From a virus, in the IMG/VR virus record IMGVR_UViG_3300025098_000331, positions 1 through 21,561 of that record: a DNA stretch of 21,561 bases; one strand, given 5' to 3'. This document shows positions 2,428-17,080 of the stretch, piece by piece; position 1 is the first letter of the stretch, and each line of letters opens with the position of its first letter. The notes under the pieces are model-generated. The model did not search any database. It was not told the origin of the DNA and saw only the letters and a program-made list of their open reading frames with translations. Position numbers and translations under genes: made by a program.

Positions 2428-2696
2428 GCCAGAAGAAAACCGCCCTAGCTTCCACAATAGATCAGAAGGTCGTTGACTATGTCAGCGAGGTTGAGCGCGT
2501 ACAGCAGCGCGATTTAGACGTTCGCGATGAGCAGCGCACCTCTGAAGTTGACGCCCTTAAATCTCAGATCGAAGAGATGCGCCAACGTATCTCAGAACTT
2601 GAAGGTCTAACGAACACAACCGCATTGGACGACAAGTACACGCTTACTAAGGCAAAGTTAGTACGTCTGATGAAAGACATGGGGTATTATGACTGA
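2424..2696 (+). CDS. Small coiled-coil protein between portal and first tail fibre
   Basis: This 90-residue protein is not recognised as a named family. It starts inside the portal stop codon (ATGA) and its own TGA overlaps the next ATG as TGATG, so it sits in a tightly coupled translation chain. Residues from about 15 to 62 are highly charged with heptad-like spacing (DALKSQIEEMRQRISELEGL), so a coiled coil is likely. The C-terminal 25 residues (YTLTKAKLVRLMKDMGYYD region) look like a short separate helix. It has no membrane segment or signal peptide. Position between portal and fibre suggests a virion or assembly factor. That is an inference from context only. Confidence 0.7.
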   Translation: MSQKKTALASTIDQKVVDYVSEVERVQQRDLDVRDEQRTSEVDALKSQIEEMRQRISELEGLTNTTALDDKYTLTKAKLVRLMKDMGYYD

Positions 2697-5600
2697 TGGG
2701 TATTACGCGTCCTACAGGTGAACAGTTAAGGTTTCGGAGCGCAACGACAGGCGACCACATTCTTGACACGTATATGGAGAACTCAGAGAAGGGTAGCCGC
2801 ACGCTCCCTGATTTGATGGACGACCTGTTTGACGGCAGCGGCGTTTTCCGCGCCGCCAACTTTGAGTTCCGCTTTGACGAGACCACAGACAAAATCCAGT
2901 TCCGCGCAGGCAACTTCGCCAACAGCAACGCTGGCTGGACGGACATCACCACTTTCTTCAATATCACTGGCACCTTCAACGCATCGACCACCTACAATAA
3001 CTTTGACCTTATCACGCTTACAAACAAGGACGTTTACATCGTCCATGGCCTTTCATCCGGCACAACATTCGCGGACGAAGCGGCGGTTATCGCATCTGCC
3101 AATACAGACAAGCTCGTAGACGTATCCGAAGCTAGAGACTGGGCATCCAAGACTGACGGCCAAGTTGTCAGCACAGACTATTCATCAAAAGCCTACGCAG
3201 TTGGCGGCACGGGCATTGACACCACAACAGGTTCCGCAAAAGACTGGGCGATCAAAACCTCTAGCACAGTCGGCAATACTGGCGAATACTCAGCCAAATA
3301 TTGGGCAACCAGTACAGCAGTCACGACAGTTTCGTCTGGCATTGCGAACATCAACACAGTTGCAGCCGCAATCGCGAGCGTAAACACCACTGCTGCGAAC
3401 ATATCGAACGTAAACACGGTCGCTGGCATATCCGCAGACGTCACAACTGTGGCAAACATAGACGGCAACGTCTCTACAGTTGCTGGCATTTCAGCGAACA
3501 CAACCACAGTCGCAGGCATTGCATCGAACGTCACCACAGTCGCGGGTGTTGCAACAAATGTAACAACAGTTTCTGGCATTGCATCCAATGTCACGACTGT
3601 CGCAAACAACAACACCAACGTCACGACTGTCGCTACCAACGTGGCAGACGTGAACACGGTTGCAGGCGAGATTAACAACAACAACTTACAGACGGTGGCC
3701 AACGACATCGCCGCAGTTATCACACTTGCAGACGACCTTAACGAAGCCACGTCAGAGATCGACACGGTCGCTAACTCAATCACGAACGTGGACACAGTTG
3801 GCAACGACATCGCAAACGTCAACTCGGTCGCGACCAACATCGCGAACGTAAACACGTCTGCAACCAATATCGCCAACGTCAACACAGTTGCAGGCATTAG
3901 CGCGAACGTCACAACTGTGGCAGGCATAAGCGCAGACGTAACCACAGCCGCCACGAACAACGCGAACATTACGACCGTCGCTGGCATATCATCTAACGTC
4001 ACCACGGTTGCAGGCATCTCATCAAATGTAACGACCGTCGCAGGAATTGCCGCAGACGTCACGACCGCCGCAACAAACGTAACAGCATTCAACAACACAT
4101 ACCTCGGCGCACAGTCGTCTGCACCGACGCAAGACCCGGACGGTTCGGCTCTCGACGTTGGCGACCTGTATTTCGATACGGTTGCAGACGTTTTGAAAGT
4201 TAGGGCGTCTGGCGGATGGATCAACGCTGGTTCCGCAGTCAACGGCACAGCCAACCGTTTTACGTTTACAGCCACATCAGGTCAGACCACATTTACTGGT
4301 GCAGACGCAAATGGCGAGACGCTTGCATACGACAGCGGCTACATGGACATTTACATGAACGGCGTAAAGCTGGCTGCTGGTGATTACACAGCATCCAACG
4401 GCACGTCTGTCGTGATTGCTCCTGCTGCCGCAGGCGACACGCTTGAGATGATTGCTTATGGCACATTCAACTTGGCAAATGTTGCAATTAACGACCTTAC
4501 AGACGTCAACACCACTGGCTTGGCTAATAATGACGTTCTTGTTTATAACAGCAGCAACTCCCGTTTCGAGCCAAGCACAAAGCTCGGCACCATCGAAACC
4601 AATGCAGACGTAACCGATACGGCTAACGTCACTGCTGCTGGTGCCTTGATGGACAGCGAACTTACCGACATAACTGCGGTAAAGGCACTAGACCAAGGCG
4701 TTGCCACAACAGATAAGCCTACTTTTAACGGTATTAACTCTACTGAAGCCCTACCAACAGTACGCCCATCACTCCTGCTAGACTTTGCGAACAGCAAGAC
4801 CCTTGATCCACGCATCACGTTTACCCGTGGCAGCACTGGTACTTACTGGGATGGTAAGACTACGACTAAGGCAGAGGAGAATTTGGTTACTTATAGCCAA
4901 GAACTTAGAGATGCTACTTGGACAAACGGAGGCGTAGTCTTTACTGAAAACGATACAACCGCCCCCGATGGAACGACTACGGCTGATAAAGTTACATTTA
5001 CTAACCAAACAACTTCACGTTTTTATCAAGTTGTACCTAACCAAACAGGTGGTTACTTAACTTTTTCATTCTATGCCAAATATGTAGATAAGCAATGGAT
5101 TTCAGTTCGCATATCGGAAAGCGCAGCGGGAACACCGGGGCTATATTTACGGACTTGGTTTGATTTAAGTAATGGCATTATTGGTACAGATCAAACTAAT
5201 GATGCAACTATGACCTCTGTAGGGAATGGGTGGTATCGGTGTACTGTTACTTCGCAGCACCAAGTTTCTAGTGACGCATTTTTAATAAGAGGTGCGGCAG
5301 GAGATAACGCAACAAGCAATGTCGCCGCCGCTGGAGATGTTTATCTGTGGGGATTTCAAGCTGAACAACGCAGTTCAGCCACAGCCTACACAGCGACAAC
5401 CTCTAGCCCCATCGTGAAGTACCAACCGACACTGCAAACAGCGGCATCAGGTGAGGCACGGTTTGACCACGATCCCGTGACAGGTGAAAGCAAGGGCTTT
5501 CTGATTGAGGAAGCTCGGACGAATCTGGGAACGTATTCATCATATATATCTGGATCAATTAGCGAATATATAAGTGTAAGAACAACTCAATCACAAAACC

Positions 5601-6577
5601 AAATTATTGCTCCAGATGGAACTCTAACTGGTGATAAACTAATTGCTACTGCAGATAGCAGTACACATAGATTGGATCAGGTGGCACGATCCATGTTTAG
5701 CGTTAGTACAACTTATACAGTATCTTGTTATGCTAAAGCAGGAGAATATGAAGGAATAACTTTATCAATTATAGGATCAAGTAATTCCAATAATGGTGTA
5801 TATTTTAATTTAACAACTGGGTCTTCTGGAGTTATAGGAGGATCTTATACATCAACAATGGAAGATGTGGGCAATGGTTGGTACCGTTGTTCTGTTACAA
5901 GAACAACACCTTCTTCAATTACATCTTCAGATAATAAATGGCTCATAGGTATTGTTGATAGTGGTTCTAATATTTCATTTACTGGTGACGGATTTAGCGG
6001 TGTTTATGTCTGGGGTGTACAAGTAGAACAAGGCGCATTCCCAACGTCATACATCCCTACCTCTGGGTCTACTGTGACTAGGAGCGGTGAACTAACAAGC
6101 GTATCTACATCAACGGTTATGAGTACGCATGACGGTTCGATTTATGTCGAAAGCACCAGCGGCCCAGCAGGTTGGGACACTACGGGACAATACAATTTGT
6201 TCCAGTTTGGTGATAGCAATGCTGATGGACTAGGAGTTTTTAAAGAGAGCGGCACAAAGAAATTTTGGTATCACGCTCGTCGGGCAAATTCGTCATTCAC
6301 AAACGTCAACGGGAGCCTGACTTGGGCTGACAACACGACAAGTAAAGTCGTGTTGGGCTTTAACAATTCAAGTCAGCGGTTCTACGTTGATGGCACTTTA
6401 ATTGGGACGGAACAAACAGCGGCATTAACGCAGCTAGACCCTACTCAAGTTACAGAATTAAATATCGGAACAAGCGGAAATGCGGCTTATCATCAATTTA
6501 ACGGATATATCAAAAAAGTCGCTTGCTGGCCTAAACGCTTACCCAACGCCACCCTGCAAGCAATGACGGAGGCATAA
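2696..6577 (+). CDS. Large modular tail fibre, 1293 residues, with decapeptide repeats, two GWYRC carbohydrate-binding-like modules and a LamG/ConA-like end
   Basis: This is probably the main receptor-binding tail fibre. Modules in order: residues about 30-85, a virion-anchoring domain that resembles the N-terminus of the protein at 15521; 148-205, two copies of a DWA.KT...YS.K.YA motif common in phage fibres; 212-467, 25 tandem units of about ten residues (VAGISANVTT type). Then 475-515 has a GDLYFDT...GGW motif; 520-597 a beta module with YMNGVKL..GDYT and GDTLEMIAYG; about 690 a PSLLLDF...LDPRITFTRGST stretch. Residues 729-905 and 943-1130 are two diverged copies of one module, each ending GWYRC...VWG.Q.EQ...Y. 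Residues 1131-1293 form a LamG/concanavalin-like end closing with GYIKKVACWPKR. The two repeated modules probably bind surface sugars. Bases 5581-5940 are only about 35% GC against over 50% in the repeat region, so the second copy looks recently acquired. No ribosome binding site is obvious; the TGATG overlap suggests coupling. Confidence 0.88.
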   Translation: MGITRPTGEQLRFRSATTGDHILDTYMENSEKGSRTLPDLMDDLFDGSGVFRAANFEFRFDETTDKIQFRAGNFANSNAGWTDITTFFNITGTFNASTTYNNFDLITLTNKDVYIVHGLSSGTTFADEAAVIASANTDKLVDVSEARDWASKTDGQVVSTDYSSKAYAVGGTGIDTTTGSAKDWAIKTSSTVGNTGEYSAKYWATSTAVTTVSSGIANINTVAAAIASVNTTAANISNVNTVAGISADVTTVANIDGNVSTVAGISANTTTVAGIASNVTTVAGVATNVTTVSGIASNVTTVANNNTNVTTVATNVADVNTVAGEINNNNLQTVANDIAAVITLADDLNEATSEIDTVANSITNVDTVGNDIANVNSVATNIANVNTSATNIANVNTVAGISANVTTVAGISADVTTAATNNANITTVAGISSNVTTVAGISSNVTTVAGIAADVTTAATNVTAFNNTYLGAQSSAPTQDPDGSALDVGDLYFDTVADVLKVRASGGWINAGSAVNGTANRFTFTATSGQTTFTGADANGETLAYDSGYMDIYMNGVKLAAGDYTASNGTSVVIAPAAAGDTLEMIAYGTFNLANVAINDLTDVNTTGLANNDVLVYNSSNSRFEPSTKLGTIETNADVTDTANVTAAGALMDSELTDITAVKALDQGVATTDKPTFNGINSTEALPTVRPSLLLDFANSKTLDPRITFTRGSTGTYWDGKTTTKAEENLVTYSQELRDATWTNGGVVFTENDTTAPDGTTTADKVTFTNQTTSRFYQVVPNQTGGYLTFSFYAKYVDKQWISVRISESAAGTPGLYLRTWFDLSNGIIGTDQTNDATMTSVGNGWYRCTVTSQHQVSSDAFLIRGAAGDNATSNVAAAGDVYLWGFQAEQRSSATAYTATTSSPIVKYQPTLQTAASGEARFDHDPVTGESKGFLIEEARTNLGTYSSYISGSISEYISVRTTQSQNQIIAPDGTLTGDKLIATADSSTHRLDQVARSMFSVSTTYTVSCYAKAGEYEGITLSIIGSSNSNNGVYFNLTTGSSGVIGGSYTSTMEDVGNGWYRCSVTRTTPSSITSSDNKWLIGIVDSGSNISFTGDGFSGVYVWGVQVEQGAFPTSYIPTSGSTVTRSGELTSVSTSTVMSTHDGSIYVESTSGPAGWDTTGQYNLFQFGDSNADGLGVFKESGTKKFWYHARRANSSFTNVNGSLTWADNTTSKVVLGFNNSSQRFYVDGTLIGTEQTAALTQLDPTQVTELNIGTSGNAAYHQFNGYIKKVACWPKRLPNATLQAMTEA
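3329..4096 (+). repeat. Tandem 30-bp (ten-residue) repeat, 25 units
   Basis: Within the first fibre gene, 25 in-frame units encode peptides of the form V-A-x-x-I-x-N-V-x-T, starting with VSSGIANINT at 3329-3358 and fading out with AATNVTAFNN at 4067-4096. Twenty-three units are exactly ten codons long. Unit 12 (3659-3694) has twelve and unit 14 (3725-3766) fourteen. Two subtypes alternate in blocks: VAGISxNVTT with the isoleucine at position 4, and VAxNIANVNT with it at position 5. The regular hydrophobic spacing suggests a trimeric shaft, either coiled-coil-like or beta; the sequence alone does not decide. Confidence 0.93.
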
Positions 6578-6580
6578 GCT

Positions 6581-6964
6581 ATGACAACGTATTACCTCAA
6601 AGCCACCTCCGAAGCTGCACTCTGGGAAGCCCTAGAAGCTGCATCACTGGCGCACAAAGAGTATGACACTGAAGACCCACTGAACGTAGCCCCTGATGAC
6701 CTTGGCTACGAGGATACTTGGGACGGCCCCAGCGGTGCCTATGAGTGGATCGCAGACACACCCATGCTAGACATCATCGGCACCATGTATCGTGAGACAG
6801 GCACTATGCTGACTGACGATGACGGGATGGAATACCCTGAGATGGAAGCGATTGATGGCTATCATGCAAACCTACGGGAAATACTGACAGCGGAACAGGT
6901 GGCTGCACTGCCTACTGTGGCTGCACCAGCTACCCCATATCGTAAATGGGCGGGAGATAACTAA
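6581..6964 (+). CDS. Small acidic fibre-associated protein, candidate fibre assembly chaperone
   Basis: This 127-residue acidic protein directly follows the first fibre gene, with GGAGG at 6568-6572 as a good ribosome binding site. It begins MTTYYLKATSEAALWEALE, has a central acidic stretch (LTDDDGMEYPEMEAIDGYHANLRE) and ends with an ATPYRKWAGDN tail. Proteins of this style sit just behind tail-fibre genes in many phages, and I have seen the YHANLR and YRKWAG signatures among unnamed phage proteins. No catalytic motif, signal peptide or membrane segment is visible. A chaperone or fibre-cap role is inferred from position and from the matching layout behind the two later fibre genes. Its stop overlaps the next start as TAATG. 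Confidence 0.72.
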   Translation: MTTYYLKATSEAALWEALEAASLAHKEYDTEDPLNVAPDDLGYEDTWDGPSGAYEWIADTPMLDIIGTMYRETGTMLTDDDGMEYPEMEAIDGYHANLREILTAEQVAALPTVAAPATPYRKWAGDN

Positions 6965-7791
6965 TGGCAAAACTAATCGGTACAGACCCTAATCAAGTAC
7001 CATCTAATGCTGACCTTGGTACAATGGCGTATCAGGATAAGGATAATGTTCATTTAACTGGTCGTGTTGTGGTTAGCGCAGTAAACCCTGCACCTTTCAC
7101 CGTACCGAATGCCTCTGAAAGCCTAGAGATAAATGATGGCTCTACCACCAAACTTCTTATGTATGCAGATAATAGTAACGCATACATACAGGCGTCAAAG
7201 TACAATGGCACTAATCCCGGTCGAACCTTAATCTTTGCGACTAAACAAGGTACAGACGGTATCGCAGGAGAATCGGCTAGATTCAATGTAAATGGAAACC
7301 TAGCCTTCCCCAACGGACAAGGCATCGACTTCTCTGCATCTGCGGGTAGTGGGCAAACTTCTTCTTTGCTGGACGATTATGAAGAGGGGAGTTGGACACC
7401 TACTTTGTCTCACTCTTCGGGCGGCAGCACCGCAACTTATAGTGTGCAATCTGGTAGATATGTCAAAGTTGGCAGTTTGGTTTTTTGTATGTTTAGAGTT
7501 GCCATTTCAGCCAAAGGAAGCGGAACGGGGAGTATTCGATTGTCTGGTTTACCCTTTAACACATCAGGCTTTGGGGGAGATTTTGCTGGAGGCAATTGCG
7601 ACTTATTTTACTCGAATGGAGCTACAAACTGGGTCAACTTGAAGGCAGGTGCTAGGGCTAGCAACCCTCAGCTTTACATCTATGGCCAAATAGCCGCAAC
7701 GAACAGAACTATCAGAGAGGGCAACTTTGATGATACAGACATTAACAGTAATTTTGACCTTCGTGGGTCGTTTTCATATAGAATAAATTAA
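6964..7791 (+). CDS. Second tail-fibre-type protein (short fibre or fibre tip)
   Basis: This 275-residue protein has the features of phage tail fibres. The N-terminus carries a DLGTMAYQDKDNV motif. Residues about 105-145 read FNVNGNLAFPNGQGIDFSAS then SSLLDDYEEGSWTPTL, a junction widespread in marine-phage fibres. After it comes a beta-rich C-terminal domain beginning YSVQSGRYVKVGSLVF and ending SFSYRIN. That terminal domain is probably a receptor-binding or capping beta sandwich. The N-terminus is short, so it may attach to another fibre rather than directly to the tail. It is coupled to the preceding gene by TAATG. Its C-terminal half is lower in GC (about 35% by hand over 7441-7500), like the variable ends of the neighbouring fibres. 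Confidence 0.82.
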   Translation: MAKLIGTDPNQVPSNADLGTMAYQDKDNVHLTGRVVVSAVNPAPFTVPNASESLEINDGSTTKLLMYADNSNAYIQASKYNGTNPGRTLIFATKQGTDGIAGESARFNVNGNLAFPNGQGIDFSASAGSGQTSSLLDDYEEGSWTPTLSHSSGGSTATYSVQSGRYVKVGSLVFCMFRVAISAKGSGTGSIRLSGLPFNTSGFGGDFAGGNCDLFYSNGATNWVNLKAGARASNPQLYIYGQIAATNRTIREGNFDDTDINSNFDLRGSFSYRIN

Positions 7792-8126: not shown

Positions 8127-9638
8127 ATGACACGCGCCCGTACTCTCGCAGACATGATCTCAGACGGTGTCATCGGCACCACCGAACTCGCAGACGACGT
8201 AATCACGCCCGTCAAGCTCGACGAGACGGGCAACTATTCTATGGCGCAACTAGGCATTGGCACGAGTTCGCCCGATTATCCTTTGCATGTTAAAGGCACA
8301 TCTAACATCCTGAAATTAGAAACAAGCACTAATAGTAGGACACAATTAGGCGGATACGATGCCTCGGGTAATGCTAACTTTTTAATAGGCAGTAATGACA
8401 GTACAAACACTGAGTTCTGGAGTTACAAAAATGGCTACATGCGTTTTGCCACAAACAGCACAGAACGTATGCACATCACATCAGCAGGTAATGTTGGGAT
8501 TGGCACAGGTACGCCCAACGAAAAGCTATCAGTTTCAGGGAACATAGAACTATATAATGACGAGCAAGATGGCTACATTTGGTTCCATGATGCGGGAACT
8601 AGAAGTTGGACACTCGGAAGCCAACAATCATCTGGTAATTTTGTTTTAACTAACACGGTTAACATTGGCTCTAATGAAAAGCTCGTTGTAACTAGCGCGG
8701 GTAATGTTGGCATTGGGACGAGTTCGCCATATTCACGACTAAGCATTGCAAGCGGAAGCGGCGGAAATAATACTGGAATGCAAATTCAACGAACTGATGC
8801 TGGCGGAGCTAAGTACTGGATTTGGCCAACGGCAACGGCCAATGGTGAAGGCGCAGGTAAGCTATTATTTCAAGACGCAACGTCAGGTTCTGCTGTTGAT
8901 GTTATGGCATTCTCAGGCGGTAATGTTGGGATTGGCACGGTTTCGCCTCCACAGCGACTAACAGTAGCAAGTAACAGTCACGGAGTTTCCTTGGATTACG
9001 TTAGTGCGCTACCCTCTGGGGCGGGGATGTACACTTCCTCTCAAGCACATACTGCACAAGCCTACGGTGACTTGAACATTAAATCTCGTTCCGACTATGC
9101 GGGTTACGGTGTTGGAGTTTATACAGCCAGTTCAAATAACAGCCCACTGCTTAGATTAAAGGTCGACGCCTCTGGCCGTGTCACAAAGCCGTATCAGCCA
9201 GTGTTTAAGGCTTACTTAACCTCAGACTTAGCAATGACTTACGGTGGTTATAATAAAATAACTCACTCTGCTACTAATATTAACATAGGGGGTCATTTCA
9301 ACACCTCAAATAGTAGATTTGTTGCGCCTGTAGCAGGAACATATTTTTTCTACGCTAGTGTTATTGCTGAAGGTTTTGGTGCGACTGAAGCATATCGTAT
9401 ATCTTTAAATATCAGGAAAAACGGCAACACCAGTTCCAAAGACAGCCTATCTAGTGGCGGGGCTGCTAATGCCGTACATGATGATAATGAAGCACAGGTG
9501 AGCGGTTTAATATACCTAAACGCAAATGACTATGTTGAGCATTGGGTCAACGTAAACGCTACAGACACATCAGGTAATATTTGGGGGGCATCATCAAGTA
9601 ATGCGTGGACATCTTTTCAAGGTTATTTAATCGGGTAG
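8127..9638 (+). CDS. Third tail fibre with GIGT..P repeats and a C1q-like head
   Basis: This 503-residue fibre starts with a TRARTLADMISDGVIGTTEL N-terminus, commonly seen in marine-phage fibres. Four copies of a GNVGIGT.SP...L.V motif follow at residues about 42-55, 121-136, 192-207 and 265-280, spaced by beta-rich spacers. Residues about 358-503 look like a C1q/TNF-type jelly roll: FKAYLTS at the start, then SNSRFVAPVAGTYFFYASV, then ISLNIRKNG, SGLIYLNANDYVEHWV and a final SFQGYLIG. C1q-like trimers make compact ligand-binding heads, so this is probably a receptor-binding tip. The N-terminal end is GC-rich (about 62% over 8161-8220) and the head AT-rich (about 35% over 9241-9420), which suggests exchange of the head. 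It starts three bases after the previous stop. Confidence 0.87.
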   Translation: MTRARTLADMISDGVIGTTELADDVITPVKLDETGNYSMAQLGIGTSSPDYPLHVKGTSNILKLETSTNSRTQLGGYDASGNANFLIGSNDSTNTEFWSYKNGYMRFATNSTERMHITSAGNVGIGTGTPNEKLSVSGNIELYNDEQDGYIWFHDAGTRSWTLGSQQSSGNFVLTNTVNIGSNEKLVVTSAGNVGIGTSSPYSRLSIASGSGGNNTGMQIQRTDAGGAKYWIWPTATANGEGAGKLLFQDATSGSAVDVMAFSGGNVGIGTVSPPQRLTVASNSHGVSLDYVSALPSGAGMYTSSQAHTAQAYGDLNIKSRSDYAGYGVGVYTASSNNSPLLRLKVDASGRVTKPYQPVFKAYLTSDLAMTYGGYNKITHSATNINIGGHFNTSNSRFVAPVAGTYFFYASVIAEGFGATEAYRISLNIRKNGNTSSKDSLSSGGAANAVHDDNEAQVSGLIYLNANDYVEHWVNVNATDTSGNIWGASSSNAWTSFQGYLIG

Positions 9639-15520: not shown

Positions 15521-17080
15521 ATGGCTCGTATTAGACAACAATTCCCCCAGAACTACGGCTCAAGCGGGAACATTAACAACGAATTTGAAGGTGTCATCAG
15601 ATACCTTAACGCTGCTGAGTTGGGTAACAACACAGTTGGCGAATTGCTTGCAAAAATATTTGATGCCAACGGTAACTTCGATGGCCCTATCGAGCTTCAA
15701 AAGAATACAGGCGGCGACATTGAGTACCGCGTCGGCGAATACTCAAACACAACAGACGGCTGGATCACACTGGTCGCAGCGGCAGACTTGCGTGGCCCGT
15801 CTGGCCAAGACTTTGGTACAATCGGCGCACCTATCTTATTCGGGCGTGTAGACTTTACAGCTACGTCTGCACAAACTAGCTTTGACTACGCCCACGATGC
15901 CACAGACGAACTACTGGTTTACGTCGACGGCGTTCTAAAGCGTAGTGGCGCATCTTTCGATTACACGAGCAACGCTTCGGGAGGATCATCAAGCGCAGGC
16001 GCAGTTGTATTCAACAGCGGCTTATCCGCAGGCGACGTTGTCAGCGTTTTCAAGGTACGTGCTACAGCTATCACTGGCTTTAACCGCTCAGACACTGACA
16101 CAACTTCAAGCCAAGCTGTGTTCGCCTTTGTCCACGACGAGAACACCAAGCTGCAAGTTTACAAGAACGGCATCCTACAGCGCGAGGGTGGTGCTAACGA
16201 CTATACGGCATCGCCGTCATCCAACACTGTAACCTTCAACAGCAACGTGGCATCTGGCAACACAATCTCAATCATCACGGTTGAGAACACATCTGTCCAA
16301 GCTGTTACTGGCATGATGTTCGAGGAAGACTACGTTCATACAGATAGCGGCTTGATCCAACTCTCAAAGATTAAGATCGACAACGCGTCTATCCCACAGG
16401 CAAAAGTCGTCAGCTTGACGACAGACCTTGGGGCAAAAGCAAAACTCACAGTATCAGCCAACTCTCCAAGCGGCCCTGCAACGGGCGACTTGTGGCATGA
16501 TACGTCTGTCACTCCAAACCAACTCAAATTCTACGATGGCACCCAGTGGCTGAAAACGTCACCAGAAAGCTCTCTGCCTACATTCACAACGGCAAACTCT
16601 GGACAGTTCGTAAAAGTAAACGGCACTGGAACCGCGCTAGAATATGGTACAGTCGACTTGTCGTCTGTGATTGCCGTCACCCAAAAGGGTGCCGCCAATG
16701 GTGTTGCATCACTCGACAGTACAGGACGGCTGCCCTCATCTCAGCTTCCTTCATTACTGGCGAGTGACAGCTTCTACGACACAGTCACAACTCCGACAAA
16801 CACCACATACACGATCAAACGTATCTTCAAGCAGAAGATACAGATTGACGGCTTATCCTTGCAGACGACATCAGGCACTTGCTCAGTTCAAGTGGCGGTC
16901 AACGGTACAGGATTTGGAAGTACATACAGCGTAAGCTCAACAGTAAACGAGTTCACCATCGGCACGCCAATCGAAGTGGATGCGACATCAGCATCTAAAT
17001 CTATTGGCTTTATCGTAACCAACAACTCATCAGGCTCTGCGCTTGAGGTCACAATGGCGGTCAGTGTTCTGACTAGCTAA
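15521..17080 (+). CDS. Tail fibre or tail-tip protein sharing the anchor domain of the large fibre
   Basis: This 519-residue protein begins with a domain (residues about 22-86: TVGELLAKIFDANGNF, IEYRVGEYSNTTDGW) that matches residues 36-81 of the large fibre at 2696 in order and spacing, so both probably dock on the same tail site. Then come two beta modules with a YVDGVLKRSG or YKNGILQREG turn (about 108-180 and 190-257), a GDLWHDT...WLKTS motif (about 322-346) and the fibre motif KGAANGVASLDSTGRLPSSQL (about 389-409). A C-terminal beta domain (about 435-519, starting IQIDGLSLQTTSGTCSVQVA) closes it. It may be the structural fibre or adaptor that carries the other fibres. A GTGAGGA ribosome binding site overlaps the end of the nozzle gene. 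Confidence 0.82.
   Translation: MARIRQQFPQNYGSSGNINNEFEGVIRYLNAAELGNNTVGELLAKIFDANGNFDGPIELQKNTGGDIEYRVGEYSNTTDGWITLVAAADLRGPSGQDFGTIGAPILFGRVDFTATSAQTSFDYAHDATDELLVYVDGVLKRSGASFDYTSNASGGSSSAGAVVFNSGLSAGDVVSVFKVRATAITGFNRSDTDTTSSQAVFAFVHDENTKLQVYKNGILQREGGANDYTASPSSNTVTFNSNVASGNTISIITVENTSVQAVTGMMFEEDYVHTDSGLIQLSKIKIDNASIPQAKVVSLTTDLGAKAKLTVSANSPSGPATGDLWHDTSVTPNQLKFYDGTQWLKTSPESSLPTFTTANSGQFVKVNGTGTALEYGTVDLSSVIAVTQKGAANGVASLDSTGRLPSSQLPSLLASDSFYDTVTTPTNTTYTIKRIFKQKIQIDGLSLQTTSGTCSVQVAVNGTGFGSTYSVSSTVNEFTIGTPIEVDATSASKSIGFIVTNNSSGSALEVTMAVSVLTS

Follow-up and report, generated by a model that had tools for sequence, protein, structure and literature searches.

The window, the whole stretch of viral DNA analysed here (21,561 nucleotides, a 21.6-kb virus record), encodes a tail fibre whose shaft is an array of 25 decads, units of mostly ten residues that share a single 3-3-4 hydrophobic lattice. 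The decad rod is probably tightly wound and helical, with its length altered when phages swap pieces of the array. A helical period of ten residues over three turns (10/3) stands at the edge of alpha-helix tolerance in coiled-coil theory, and the accessible part of the cited work (PMC4786415) has it only as local defects. The 25 natural decads, which have inherent phase shifts and dozens of relatives, provide a sequence set for testing a whole fibre at 10/3. Fibre length changes by recombination while synonymous codons drift, which points to selection on the rod core and not on the DNA.

The fibre gene sits in the virion structural module, preceded in order by the end of the terminase large subunit, the portal protein (87% identity with its counterpart in Roseobacter phage CRP-810) and a 90-residue protein. 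Gene order in CRP-810 is terminase, portal, small gene and tail fiber, and the window ORF occupies the slot of gp57, annotated "tail fiber". A conserved N-terminal domain precedes the array, and a domain like the head spike fibre of gene transfer agents (GTA) follows it. The earlier note had taken the array for a fibre shaft, a reading supported by this domain order, by the portal-adjacent slot and by relatives annotated as tail fibers. The features are as follows, residue numbers being those of the fibre protein.

2696..6577, + strand: tail-fibre ORF, 1293 aa (ORF list; PHROG tail and tail fiber families, best E 6.5e-92; CRP-810 gp57 slot)
2696..3310, + strand: N-terminal domain, residues 1-205, presumed virion anchor (relatives, alignment)
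3329..4096, + strand: decad array, 25 units, residues 212-467 (parse, shuffles, 3-3-4 spacing, Fourier peak)
3329..3418, + strand: phase B block (hydrophobic at unit position 5), residues 212-241
3419..3598, + strand: phase A block (hydrophobic at unit position 4), residues 242-301
3629..3886, + strand: phase B block including both long units, residues 312-397
3659..3694, + strand: 12-residue unit, residues 322-333 (parse; kept in relatives such as L004, L014, L017 and L021)
3725..3766, + strand: 14-residue unit, residues 344-357, spacing 4-3-4-3 (parse)
3887..4066, + strand: phase A block, residues 398-457
4097..4255, + strand: domain after the shaft (YLGAQSSAP...GDLYFD), residues 468-520 (identity drop in relatives; pLDDT)
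4931..5485, + strand: region like structural proteins of solved phages, residues 746-930 (phmmer)
5501..6085, + strand: GTA head-spike-fibre-like domain, residues 936-1130 (NF048003, PDB 6tb9)

Further downstream, 8127-9638 and 15521-17080 encode fibre- or tail-like proteins matching tail fiber or minor tail PHROGs, and 6964-7791 encodes another whose PHROG matches are all to families of unknown function. An antisense ORF across the shaft (3193-4275, - strand, 360 aa) was rejected as a gene. Over a fixed 780-base stretch, which in L021 extends beyond the shaft, its frame is stop-free in seven of 11 sequences and carries one to three stops in the other four; it therefore looks like a by-product of codon composition.

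The N-terminal domain, the putative virion anchor, has 104 relatives confirmed in viral contigs, and its 30-row alignment contains many invariant columns. When its AlphaFold2 model was compared with PDB folds, none of 173 matches (E up to 10) reached E 0.001, the best being a tail fibre at 0.025, while two of 633 matches in a viral fold library did so. Among genome contigs this domain had five weak matches, and at E 1e-3 it was found in only two of 50,697 phage records, CRP-810 and CRP-3 (the latter over residues 145-205).

Beyond the shaft, residues 468-520 were modelled with pLDDT 65-87 over most of the domain (whole-shaft AlphaFold2 model), and residues 746-930 matched 9b45 (baseplate wedge, 1.6e-14) and 8env (triplex gp45, 2.4e-14) using phmmer. 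Residues 936-1130 matched GTA_spike_fiber NF048003 at 4.7e-71 (239 bits, cut-off 36) and residues 882-1139 matched PDB 6tb9 at 7.9e-32, so a distal domain of receptor- or glycan-binding type is present, and the tip domains may bind glycans. Pfam family PF16738 was rejected as a shaft family, as its match lies outside the shaft and below cut-off. Among eight relatives with shafts of the same length, the shaft is 81-100% identical. Identity is 70-77% immediately behind it and 45-54% in the stretch that follows; where the relatives' contigs extend to the two GTA-like regions, the alignable portions give 15-30%. Anchor and shaft are stable, and the tips are thus exchanged or evolve fast.

The limits, frame and unit count of the array given in the earlier note proved correct: base 3329 is in frame at residue 212, and 25 units span residues 212-467, 23 of them with ten residues, one with 12 and one with 14, a count that rests on one parse, inspected by eye, and on the length of shaft separating the flanking motifs. 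Identity at lag 10 extends to 125 of 246 positions, whereas the best of lags 5-30 in 2000 residue shuffles averaged 44 and never exceeded 59. As the earlier note stated, the period is not that of a classical heptad (lag-7 identity 0.163 vs 0.494 at lag 10), nor does it have the nonad or hexad spacing of alpha/beta coiled coils (lag 9, 0.117; lag 6, 0.116). The triple beta-helix repeat of T4 gp5 is an octad, VxGxxxxx, a period that the window shaft lacks (lag-8 identity 0.058). Preferred residues in the unit are V1, A2, G/N/T3, I4 or I5, A6, N7, V8, T/N9 and T10. Units 302-311 and 418-427 have no large hydrophobic at position 4 or 5. The 25th unit (AATNVTAFNN) scores 12.7 and merges into the following domain, the others scoring 18.5-32.0 except for the 14-residue unit at 8.3. 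By eye the 14-residue unit is two heptads, and its DLNE..SEI is kept in relatives such as L004, L009, L014, L017 and L021. Two automated counters were discarded: a score-matrix parser found a mean of 19.7 "units" in shuffled shafts vs 26 in the real shaft, and a motif-chain counter gave 11 for the window but up to 15 for shuffles.

Two alternating subtypes had been described, and the blocks are present (B at 212-241, A at 242-301, B at 312-397 and A at 398-457); the subtypes are, however, two phases of a single 3-3-4 hydrophobic lattice. As the sequence itself shows, phase A from V8 is VTTVAGISAN and phase B from I5 is IANVNTVATN, both hxxhxxhxxN. Of 69 gaps between neighbouring V/I/L/M/F residues, 59 measure 3 or 4; in 1000 shuffles such gaps averaged 25% and reached at most 42%. 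In the window shaft, 15 of 19 4-steps end after N or D. Across 34 distinct shafts, preselected for a ten-residue period by a lag-10 identity of at least 0.30 and with any shaft sharing its first 150 residues with one already counted dropped, 251 stretches separate one 4-step from the next; 225 of them have exactly two 3-steps, 14 have three and 12 have one. Residue 9 tracks the phase of the unit, being N in 124 of 136 distinct phase B units and T, S or A in 165 of 167 phase A units, and in 102 of 405 distinct units neither position 4 nor position 5 is hydrophobic; units share ancestry, and these counts are not independent. The window shaft has its Fourier peak at 108 degrees and the CRP-810 shaft at 109 degrees; spacing in the window is thus that of a 10/3 decad, 3-3-4 with 3.33 residues per turn.

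This lattice, together with a predicted helix over the first decads and the same lattice in the coliphage N4 appendage, leads us to favour slightly a sustained decad coiled coil for the shaft. The helix comes from an AlphaFold2 model of residues 1-245, in which 207-244 form one helix (block pLDDT 84, 86, 89, 86 and 75) and the first three decads are helical at pLDDT 86-89; its 30-row alignment includes some rows with non-decad shafts, and the five models had means from 43 to 68. The whole-shaft model was uninformative (mean pLDDT 41.8, about 36 over the decads), with partly short strands at a spacing of about ten residues over part of the shaft and helix only over the long units (residues 330-378). 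The folding alignment A1 (19 rows) was reduced to A2 (13) by omitting L015, L030, L039, L048, L051 and L078. No Pfam or NCBIfam family was above cut-off on the shaft, two NCBIfam coiled-coil families reaching E 0.009, and the PHROG tail fiber families that match it (phrog_22284, 2.9e-13 over 309-428; phrog_21412 from 382 on) carry no fold information. The shaft is composed of V, T, N, A, S and G, with few strong helix formers besides Ala. For alpha coiled coils, PMC4786415, in its accessible part, assumes 10/3 as the lower limit and describes decads only as single local stammers absorbed by short 3-10 segments.

Two other structured rods were weighed, both of which we consider unlikely. A trimeric rod of beta structure, its chains intertwined as a triple beta-helix with roughly one strand to each decad, would be like other phage spikes except for its ten-residue step. 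It would suit the V/T/N/G-rich composition and the short strands at roughly ten-residue steps in part of the low-confidence whole-shaft model, and the VxG seen in many units of phase A is similar to the octad of T4 gp5. It accords poorly with hydrophobic spacings of 3 and 4 and with power that is strongest at 108 degrees rather than near 180; a hydrophobic alternating between positions 4 and 5 would switch strand faces, the first decads are predicted helical at the pLDDT given above, and the N4 appendage retains the lattice with many L, K, E and Q residues. An equally improbable mixed rod would combine, in each decad, a short helix with a three-residue non-alpha layer (a 3-10 turn or a beta layer at VAG/VAT), leaving no continuous alpha helix. 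VAG or VAT opens 12 of the 25 units, and the accessible part of PMC4786415 has stammers taken up by 3-10 segments and beta layers favouring a hydrophobic first and a small second residue, e.g. MAT; the same source places beta layers in 9- or 6-residue motifs, not ten, and a single helix is predicted over the first decads. A flexible low-complexity linker with no fixed fold is very improbable, as the monomer pLDDT of about 36 over most of the shaft is outweighed by a strict 3-3-4 lattice in 34 distinct shafts and codons randomised between units, which argue for selection on a packed core.

Among the loci surveyed, related portals were found on 90 distinct contigs (16 of 106 loci were removed as contained in others), and 63 of the shafts beside them could be classed: 40 decad, nine of a 7- or 14-residue Ala/Ser type, six of 12 residues, four of 11 residues and four without a clear period, the other 27 contigs having no readable shaft or ending too early. 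The 12-residue repeats (such as TSDIVSDLNTLA) lie in the fibre slot of L046, L100, L112, L113, L114 and L124, and the 11-residue repeats (such as DFITDLNLVTA) in that of L118, L119, L120 and L123, with lag-11 identity of 0.75-0.77. One example of each of three non-decad classes was subjected to the Fourier test: the strongest hydrophobic period was 3.0 in L114, the sole 12-residue example tested, the main peak in L118 (11-residue class) was at 5.5 followed by 3.67, and the Ala/Ser shaft of L093 had no clear peak. L110, a relative at the fibre locus, has a short shaft rich in E, K and H with its strongest peak at 9.2 and 3.33 second; beyond its shaft, the same protein carries collagen-like G-D-K and G-E-K repeats. 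That the slot carries coiled coils is thus only partly borne out. As the tested non-decad shafts are not all coiled-coil-like, they support shaft exchange more than fold.

The earlier note had expected unit number to change easily by slippage or recombination of the 30-bp units, and had asked whether it is constant among relatives. It differs among them, and recombination inside the array is supported by break points; slippage is not. Near-identical DNA units, as a slippage-prone tandem repeat needs, are absent: mean pairwise identity is 55% over the first 24 units, and the best repeat-finder arrays have 70-82% matches. Synonymous codons at identical residues match at 0.407 vs 0.405 expected (1317 comparisons); for adjacent units the match is no higher (0.395 vs 0.414, 124 comparisons). 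Slippage is also at odds with the identical shaft length of eight out of 11 close relatives whose shaft can be read. Because the units are alike as protein and not as DNA, change by segment exchange is favoured over slippage.

The surveys covered the best 80 of 104 and the best 80 of 252 relatives, the nearest part of each set. Anchor identity is 88-100% at 17 loci (L002-L018), 11 of which show both shaft ends in frame; between flanking motifs the shaft has 259 residues in eight of these, 222 in two, which carry another end domain, and 309 in one. Among eight loci with portal identity of at least 98% and both shaft ends, lengths are 261 (five), 224 (two) and 191 (one), measured from two residues earlier so that 259 reads 261. 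Differences from 259 are thus +50, -37 and -70, not all whole decads. The three of 11 relatives that differ do so via sequence swaps inside the array. L009 tracks L010 at 86-98% per 60-base bin to about gene base 1200 and then at about 25-50%; L012, a separate contig, has the length of L009. L017 tracks L014 to base 720 at 75-100% per bin, with 91% or above in 10 of 12 bins; identity is then 21-68% and, between base 1200 and the contig end, 95-96% again. The net gain is 50 residues or five decads. L018, also a separate contig, begins like L017 and ends inside the array. In L005, whose capsid is 100% identical to that of the window, the fibre gene (from 545) breaks frame near residue 398 inside the array and the shaft goes on in another frame to a window-like end, either a frameshift or an assembly error. 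The length data come from metagenome assemblies, in which collapse of the repeat is unlikely because the DNA units differ. The observed length changes are explained by recombination and not by recent slippage.

On the favoured reading, the array is the rod of a receptor-binding fibre in a CRP-810-type marine phage. With three hydrophobics at 3-3-4 in each decad, a helix would present its hydrophobic seam at intervals of 3.33 residues. Three such chains would pack on this seam into a coiled coil with strong left-handed winding, stammers in tandem, and the trimeric coil may run along the whole rod. The rod would keep the carbohydrate-binding-like tip domains away from the virion, its length presumably being set by unit number and altered by swapping array segments with relatives, not by slippage. 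A fuller proposal, put forward tentatively and with less confidence than the decad coil itself, is a continuous trimeric alpha coiled coil at 10/3 over some 200 residues, forming a separate fibre class common to marine phages and N4-like appendages with length changed via segment exchange. Of 50,697 phage records, 45 match the window shaft at E 1e-5, and 27 of these are from Pelagibacter phages; shaft-matching tail fibers occur in Pelagibacter, Alteromonas, Synechococcus, Limnohabitans and other phages. A literature search judged mostly from listings gave no paper on the decad repeat, and ten-residue shafts are absent from the accessible parts of PMC11654681, PMC13232217 and PMC12750041.

Among known systems, the N4 appendage gp66 is like the window in its ten-residue period and 3.33-residue hydrophobic lattice over 147 residues, a stretch 100% identical to a coliphage N4 gene annotated "appendage" or "60 kDa protein" (lag-10 identity 0.41; 108-degree peak of 38.9 vs a shuffle maximum of 12.0), and unlike it in having many of the more helix-prone L, K, E and Q. 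The accessible part of PMC12633501 gives gp66 as a trimer; of its structures (PDB 9lc0, 9yf4 and 9yf5), 9YF4 and 9YF5 model only about residues 1-80. The tie by sequence is weak and homology is not established: phmmer of the window shaft against the appendage gave E 6.7e-5 with 20 bits of composition bias, the appendage against the decad profile a non-significant 0.12, and phrog_29955, the gp66 family, 0.0076 over residues 315-395. The N4 stretch matches 56 phage records, including Achromobacter, Escherichia, Erwinia, Alteromonas and Pelagibacter phages, and at E 1e-5 these include five Pelagibacter and five Alteromonas records.

The published stammer decad likewise places ten residues over three turns; in the accessible part of PMC4786415 it is isolated within a heptad stalk, whereas the window has 25 units, 23 of them exact decads. 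In the alpha/beta coiled coils of Thermosinus Tcar0761, tandem short repeats also build a trimeric fibre and MAT resembles VAT, but the period is nine residues and not ten. The GTA head spike fibre Rcc01080 (6tb9) resembles the window protein in the distal domain only, with no likeness to the shaft. CRP-810 gp57 shares with the window fibre its slot, N-terminal domain and decads, on a shaft about twice as long (504 vs 259 residues by equal measure).
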